Of a DNA stretch of 64,000 nucleotides, positions 42,655 through 45,824 are shown in pieces. The notes beneath the pieces are model-generated. The model was not told where the DNA came from. It worked only from the letters and a program-made list of their open reading frames with translations, and ran no database searches. Made by a program: the position numbers and the translations under genes. The stretch is taken from positions 310,001-374,000 of the forward strand of contig JAIQGK010000012.1 in assembly GCA_020072645.1 (NCBI GenBank), read 5' to 3'. Positions within the stretch are counted from its first letter, which is position 1. Every line of letters begins with the position of its first letter. This DNA is from Terriglobia bacterium. GTDB taxonomy: Bacteria; Acidobacteriota; Terriglobia; Terriglobales; Acidobacteriaceae.

Positions 42655-42730
42655 GCTGGCGTAGCTCAGCTGGTAGAGCATCTGATTTGTAATCAGAGGG
42701 TCGGGGGTTCAAGTCCCTTCGCCAGCTCCA
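42655..42730 (+). tRNA. tRNA-Thr (TGT)
   Basis: 76 nt including an encoded CCA. The acceptor stem GCTGGCG/CGCCAGC, D arm and T arm (GGGGGTTCAAGTCCC) fold normally. The anticodon loop TTTGTAA gives TGT. Confidence 0.97.
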
Positions 42731-43120: not shown

Positions 43121-43208
43121 GCACAGGTGACCGAGTGGTTAATGGTAGCAGACTGTAAATCTGCCGCTCTTCGGAGCTACGGAGGTTCGAATCCTCCCCT
43201 GTGCACCA
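43121..43208 (+). tRNA. tRNA-Tyr (GTA)
   Basis: 88 nt with a long variable arm, as expected for this class II tRNA. The acceptor stem GCACAGG/CCTGTGC and encoded ACCA end are intact; the anticodon loop CTGTAAA gives GTA. Confidence 0.97.
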
Positions 43209-43595: not shown

Positions 43596-43671
<76 letters not shown>

Positions 43672-43726
43672 GATTTTAGATTTGTAGTTTGGTCGAGGCG
43701 GGGAGTAGCAAATAGCTCAAAGCAGG

Positions 43727-43801
43727 GCGGGAGTAACTCAGTGGTAGAGTCACAGCCTTCCAAGCTGTTGGTCGCGGGTTCGATTCCCGTCTCCCGCTCC
43801 A
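43727..43801 (+). tRNA. tRNA-Gly (TCC)
   Basis: 75 nt with encoded CCA. Acceptor GCGGGAG/CTCCCGC, anticodon loop CTTCCAA giving TCC, T arm GCGGGTTCGATTCCCGT. Confidence 0.97.
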
Positions 43802-44357: not shown

Positions 44358-45330
44358 ATGGCAAAAGAAAAATTTGATCGCAGCAAACCGCACGTAAACG
44401 TAGGCACGATTGGTCACATTGATCATGGCAAGACGACGTTGACGGCGGCGATCACCAAGGTGTTGTCGAAGCACAATCCGAAGATCAAGTTTCGCGATTT
44501 TGCCTCGATTGATAATGCGCCGGAAGAGCGCGAGCGCGGTATTACCATCGCCACGGCGCACGTGGAATATGAGACGCCGAACCCTCGATCTCGTAGAACT
44601 CGAAGTTCGCGAACTGCTGAAGAGCTACAAGTTCCCCGGCGACGATGTTCCGGTGATCCGCTTGTCAGCGCTGAATGCATTGAACGGCGATCCCAAGTGG
44701 GAAAAGCAGATTGACGAGCTGATGGCTGCCGTCGATAAGTACGTTCCGCTGCCGGCGCGCGATATCGACAAGCCGTTCCTGATGCCGATTGAAGATATCT
44801 TCTCCATCTCGGGCCGCGGCACCGTGGTAACCGGAAGAATCGAGCGTGGCAAGGTGAAGGTAGGCGAGGAAGTTGAGATTGTCGGTTTTCGCGACACGCG
44901 CAAGACAGTTGTGACGGGCGTGGAAATGTTCAAGAAGCAGCTGGACGAAGGCATGGCCGGTGACAACGCTGGCTTGCTGCTGCGCGGCATCGGCAAAGAC
45001 GATGTTGAGCGCGGCATGGTTCTGGCGAAACCGGGATCGATCACGCCACACACCAAGTTCAAGGCTGAGATTTACGTCCTGAACAAAGAAGAAGGCGGAC
45101 GTCATACACCGTTCTTCAAGGGCTATCGTCCGCAGTTTTACTTCCGCACCACAGACGTGACGGGCGTGGCTGAGCTGCCTGCGGGCACGGAGATGGTGAT
45201 GCCGGGCGACAACGTTTCATTGCAAATCGAGCTGATTACGCCGGTGGCCATGGAAAAGGGACTGCGTTTCGCTATCCGTGAAGGTGGACGGACGGTGGGA
45301 GCAGGAACGATCAGCGAGATCATTCAGTAA
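44358..45330 (+). pseudogene. tuf: Elongation factor Tu with a large internal deletion and frame change
   Basis: The first 75 codons are normal EF-Tu ([30 protein letters not shown] is G1; [15 protein letters not shown] includes the end of switch I). At 44580-44584 the frame changes and the protein resumes at [20 protein letters not shown], which is about 72 codons further on in normal EF-Tu. The missing part holds G3 (DCPGH) and G4 (NKCD). G5 and domains 2 and 3 to [11 protein letters not shown] are complete (248 residues). The loss is about 215 nt and not a multiple of three. A functional EF-Tu cannot be made from this locus. Either another tuf copy exists elsewhere, or this is a misassembly between duplicated tuf genes. 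Confidence 0.93.
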
Positions 45331-45474: not shown

Positions 45475-45624
45475 ATGAGAGAAATAGTCACGTTACAGTG
45501 CGGCGACTGCAAAGAGCGGAATTACTCGACCACCAAGAACAAAAAGACCACCACTGGTCGGCTTGAGTTCAAGAAGTTCTGTAAGCGGTGCCGCAAGCAC
45601 ACAGGGCATAAGGAAGTGAAGTAA
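45475..45624 (+). CDS. rpmG: 50S ribosomal protein L33
   Basis: 49 residues: [20 protein letters not shown], then [20 protein letters not shown] and KHTGHKEVK. The two cysteine pairs (CGDC and CKRC) make this the zinc-binding form of L33. It lies between tuf and tRNA-Trp, its usual place. The ORF is too short for most automated minimum lengths. The start ATG is preceded by a GGGCTGG stretch and not a strong ribosome site. Confidence 0.95.
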
Positions 45625-45748: not shown

Positions 45749-45824
45749 AGGGGCGTAAGCTCAACGGCTAAACTGCCGGTCTCCAAAACCGGACTTGGGG
45801 GTTCGAATCCCTCCGCCCCTGCCA
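45749..45824 (+). tRNA. tRNA-Trp (CCA)
   Basis: 76 nt with encoded CCA. Acceptor AGGGGCG/CGCCCCT, anticodon loop CTCCAAA giving CCA, T arm GGGGGTTCGAATCCCTC. Immediately precedes secE, the standard arrangement. Confidence 0.97.

Follow-up and report, generated by a model that had tools for sequence, protein, structure and literature searches.

Two interrupted tuf genes in one genome assembly: very probably an assembly artefact at a tract shared by both copies

The tuf gene of the window and its neighbourhood

In the window, that is, the whole 64-kb stretch of DNA that was analysed, the tuf gene encoding EF-Tu spans positions 44358-45330, with an ATG at 44358 and a stop codon at 45328-45330. 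The gene is composed of two pieces that lie in different frames of the forward strand. The 5' piece (44358-44583; 226 nt, codons 1-75 plus one base) encodes normal EF-Tu including the G1 region, and its last letters, up to an end that was set at 44583 by alignment with tuf DNA of the same genus, are ...ACGCCGAACC. The 3' piece (44584-45330; 747 nt, 248 codons and the stop) opens at 44584 with CTCGATCTC... and likewise encodes normal EF-Tu. The NCBIfam model TIGR00485 matches the gene at model positions 1-74 and 146-394 only, with 115.5 bits for the 5' half and 443.1 bits for the 3' half, and at these scores the two halves do not match by chance. The N-terminal G1 region and domains 2-3 are covered by these matches; the G3 (DCPGH) and G4 (NKCD) motifs are absent. 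When the window tuf was aligned to tuf DNA of the same genus, 215 nt were found to be absent after base 44583, with a change of frame. The junction at 44583/44584, where alignment and model coverage place the absent coding sequence at about model positions 75-145, is read here as artificial in the light of the evidence given below. A first-pass annotation of the window had described a normal N-terminal 75 codons and C-terminal 248 codons around a lost middle holding G3 and G4, with a frame change and 215 missing nucleotides; the model coverage and the same-genus alignment bear out that description.

Upstream of tuf are encoded tRNA-Thr(tgt) (42655-42730), tRNA-Tyr (43121-43208), and, on the forward strand, tRNA-Thr(ggt) and tRNA-Gly(tcc) (43596-43801); tRNA-Thr, tRNA-Tyr and tRNA-Gly beside tuf constitute the usual tRNA-tuf neighbourhood. 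Downstream of tuf, an intact rpmG-like (L33) open reading frame of 49 codons was read by eye on the forward strand (45475-45624), and 3' of it lie tRNA-Trp (45749-45824) and then secE, nusG, rplK-A-J-L and rpoB, which were named by eye from their translations. The neighbourhood of the window tuf looks intact and normal. In its EF-Tu sequence and neighbouring genes the stretch seems to resemble Acidobacteriota.

A second cut copy and the search for the missing middle

The genome to which the window belongs (G000; window on contig C12) comprises 6.44 Mb in 42 contigs and is 99.14% complete and 0.22% contaminated. One other tuf gene was found in it, in the str operon at C5:30035-31035, preceded by rpsL-rpsG-fusA and followed by rpsJ and rplC (names by eye). 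Where tuf is duplicated in bacteria, one copy lies in the str operon and one by tRNA-Trp/secE, and both positions with their neighbours are present in this genome; unlike such duplicates, however, neither copy is complete in the assembly. The C5 copy is cut on the left at the same base as the window tuf, lacks 184 nt and is also frameshifted; its right cut falls 31 nt earlier than that of the window tuf, and of the NKCD codons those for KCD alone remain, in a frame other than that of its 5' piece. No Ns are present in the 64-kb window or in the fetched stretch of C5, and the joins are thus unmarked as gaps, a point against an artefact.

The 112-residue open reading frame between fusA and tuf on C5 (L009:5683-6021) is, to our knowledge, in an unusual place for the str operon. 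The end of a similar reading was seen by eye upstream of tuf at the end of contig C11 (L049) of the same-genus genome G007.

No tuf in the assembly scores above the curated whole-protein cut-off of TIGR00485 (522.4 bits), and no third tuf was found in it; the best pieces reach 459.5 bits (C5) and 443.1 bits (window contig), and the 5' pieces reach 115.2 and 115.5 bits. A search of the assembly with the EF-Tu N-terminal portion as query did not recover the EF-Tu middle; that part of the query was covered only by paralogous GTPases and weak chance matches of at most 42% identity. A PF00009 match at C5:263198-263548, which spans the missing positions 70-187, was judged by eye from its translation to be an Era-like GTPase and not a third tuf. 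Taken literally, the assembly would describe an organism without EF-Tu, and such a bacterium is not credible.

The first-pass annotation had also proposed that the window tuf might be decaying while another, intact tuf exists, and had called for a complete tuf to be sought in the rest of the genome. The assembly offers no such gene: the one further copy found, on C5, is itself cut and lacks, with its 184 absent nucleotides, most of the same middle. That the window tuf is nonetheless a real decaying pseudogene, with the other copy intact in the cell, is very unlikely. One tuf gene can suffice for a bacterium that has two; however, the C5 copy is cut in the assembly at the same base too, the edge sits at the assembler's overlap length (see below), and apart from the cut both copies read as open coding sequence, without another stop or change of frame.

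The 139-nt tract at the left edge

Comparison of the two copies revealed a tract of 139 nt (44445-44583, forward strand) that is identical in both and ends exactly at the cut: the last difference between the copies before the cut is at 44444, and the left edge lies exactly 139 nt after it. A naive count gives 140 nt, because both right pieces start with C; as AACC (AATC in G006) is followed by G in those same-genus sequences that span the site, this final C was given to the 3' piece. The other identical tracts between the copies are shorter (at most 131 nt in the 3' part and 73 nt at the 5' end), and with no other tract of at least 139 nt in the assembled parts of tuf, the assembly graph need fork nowhere else in the gene.

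The assembly's own contig ends were compared over their terminal 600 nt for 40 of the 42 contigs (80 ends; all contigs but C41 and C42), and shared ends were listed if they were at least 20 nt long at offsets up to 2. In 18 pairs, exactly 139 nt counted from the first base are common to both ends; the remaining listed pairs share 61-138 nt, and none listed shares more than 139 nt. Of four head-to-tail overlaps, that of C28 and C31 is exactly 139 nt; the others are 90, 51 and 34 nt. The end overlap of this assembly is 139 nt, and because the tract at the cut has the same length, both left pieces stop where the assembly graph forks. Many of the contig ends also group into a few near-identical families (for example C2 tail, C8 head, C10 head, C12 tail, C17 tail and both ends of C24), and multi-copy repeated elements seem to limit this assembly.

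We are highly confident that the break in tuf is an assembly artefact at the tract shared by the two copies and not a real feature, and the deletion is almost certainly not a mutation. This reading is supported by the cutting of both copies at the same left base with different right edges, by the coincidence of 139 nt with the contig-end overlap, by the failure to find the middle in the assembly, and by relatives in which tuf pieces stop at contig ends. A join across near-identical copies, which had been raised at first pass as one possibility, is strongly supported by the 139-nt tract, the contig-end overlaps and the contig ends of relatives.

The organism would accordingly carry the ordinary two tuf genes, one behind fusA in the str operon and one, that of the window, beside tRNA-Trp/secE, and one stretch of identity between the copies would exceed the assembler's largest k-mer in length. 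The de Bruijn graph would fork at this shared stretch, so that both 5' pieces would end at one and the same base, 139 nt beyond the last difference. The short middle piece common to the copies, which would measure about 360 nt if they do not differ in the missing part, would be neither placed nor kept. A scaffolding or curation step may then have joined each 5' piece directly to its 3' piece, and unequal trimming of the 3' pieces at the join would have left 215 nt missing from one copy and 184 nt from the other, each with a false frameshift. We infer that the real tuf is intact, that a scaffolding step and a wrong (negative) gap estimate were involved, and which assembler was used; our guess for the latter is IDBA_UD with maxk 140.

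The COBRA paper (PMC10914622) states that repeats break de Bruijn assemblies, that the end sequences equal maxK for metaSPAdes and MEGAHIT and maxK-1 for IDBA_UD, and that contigs are advised over scaffolds for IDBA_UD owing to scaffolding errors; the runs given there for the three programs used maxk 140 (IDBA_UD), k 127 and k 141. As in the repeat breaks presented in that paper, the 5' pieces of both tuf copies end with a shared 139 nt, which is maxk 140 minus 1; unlike those breaks, the pieces were not left as ends, but were joined inside two contigs with the shared middle omitted. In PMC7674155, in which idba_ud was run with maxk 140, local assembly errors, for example in pmoC, were attributed to high similarity among gene copies. 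The error in tuf is likewise attributed to near-identical gene copies, although the gene there is pmoC, and the errors in that study were handled by read mapping and manual curation. A literature search that combined misassembly, de Bruijn graph, repeat, metagenome-assembled genome and contig ends returned no paper.

As biology, the broken tuf is of no consequence, being most likely an ordinary error of assembly software. If the artefact is real, however, it is of slight practical importance: in a genome scored as 99.14% complete and 0.22% contaminated, both copies of an essential gene then carry false deletions that no Ns reveal, and a quick check that needs no reads is available: the identical tract at a break can be compared with the overlap common to the contig ends of the assembly.

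Relatives as controls and the right edges

Sixty-one genomes, including the present one, were searched with TIGR00485; a match at E <=1e-30, with paralogues such as SelB-like proteins included, was obtained in 53 of the 61, and a match over the cut-off in 22 of the 61. All 42 partial EF-Tu matches in 23 relatives, hand-picked such that paralogues and near-complete genes were left out, end within 6 nt of a contig end; for the four tuf pieces of the present genome, the nearest contig end is more than 30,000 nt away. Among the tuf-bearing contig ends of relatives, an exact terminus is shared in 12 of 13 pairs, with a length of 141 nt in seven, 139 nt in three, 127 nt in one and 107 nt in one; the remaining pair, C4/C165 of G013, shares only 2 nt. 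The settings in PMC10914622 cited above lead to expected end overlaps of 139, 127 and 141 nt, all of which are seen here; 107 nt is not among them. Two of the 139-nt pairs belong to G004 and one to G007, both of the same genus as the present genome. In G007, contig C24 continues from the fork: its first base directly follows the last position at which C11 and C8 differ, and it has a 139-nt overlap with each of these two contigs.

Same-genus sequences run past the left edge without an insert in G007 C24, G006 C312, G004 C29 and C72, G003 C334 and G001 C78, and G003 C217 and G007 C11 and C8 cross it for a short way, also without an insert. These sequences, together with the graph fork, which fully explains the left edge, make it extremely unlikely that a real insert (an intron or intein-like element) occupies the site in both copies and that the assembly collapsed around it; nothing positive speaks for such an insert, and its one point in favour is that the assembly does not show what lies between the edges. 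It is equally hard to believe, more generally, that both tuf genes truly carry an interruption at codon 75, whether from an insert or from a real deletion compensated by an unassembled third gene, and that the 139-nt match is coincidental.

Both tuf copies were assembled and compared in three relatives. In G025, a single contig, the copies are identical (L061/L062); in G036, 62 of 1188 positions differ and no identical tract exceeds 107 nt (L065/L066); and in G014, 72 of 1188 positions differ and one identical tract reaches 194 nt (L063/L064), yet both copies were assembled whole, which indicates that a long identical tract does not always break an assembly. The tuf copies are thus not homogenised in two of these three intact pairs (G014 and G036).

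The right edges follow the overlap length less well than the left edge. The right pieces of the present copies start 8 and 39 nt before the first difference between the copies, and not one overlap length (139 nt) before it; neither right edge could be related to 139 nt, and extra trimming at the join must therefore be assumed. A wrong negative gap estimate may have trimmed 131 and 100 nt from the 3' pieces, which would give the edges seen. In the same-genus G007, the right-hand contig C9 agrees with C24 over no more than its first 119 nt, and the 139-nt rule is hence not seen at every right-hand end. The contig numbers of the present assembly roughly follow length, but C3, C12 (that of the window) and C17 depart widely from this order and C33 and C34 to a lesser degree, which fits joins made after a first numbering; C5, which bears the other cut tuf, is in order by number.

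The right edges also bear on a real deletion in one tuf that was spread by gene conversion, with a third, unassembled tuf sustaining the cell. The left edge is the same in both copies, and PMC5485169 presents the duplicate tuf genes of Salmonella as a model for gene conversion, with which patches of identity between copies fit. Such an event would nevertheless leave the 139-nt coincidence without explanation; moreover, the right edges are 31 nt apart and the assembly yielded no third tuf, and we regard this course of events as vanishingly unlikely. An artefact at the shared tract remains the reading that we adopt.

The same break was sought in other species by one degenerate-pattern scan (residue 75 not Arg), in which the present genome was not counted and which gave two loci. 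One of these, in a Myxococcales MAG (L186), seems on visual inspection of its translations to be unrelated sequence that matched by chance. The other, in the Polaromonas MAG Bin2_6 (L187; NZ_JAAFGZ010000043.1, minus strand, ~920-945), is a tuf with a small frameshifting deletion at the same AACC site; the deletion measures about 11 nt by eye against the NRHYAHVD reading, and is perhaps another assembly fault.
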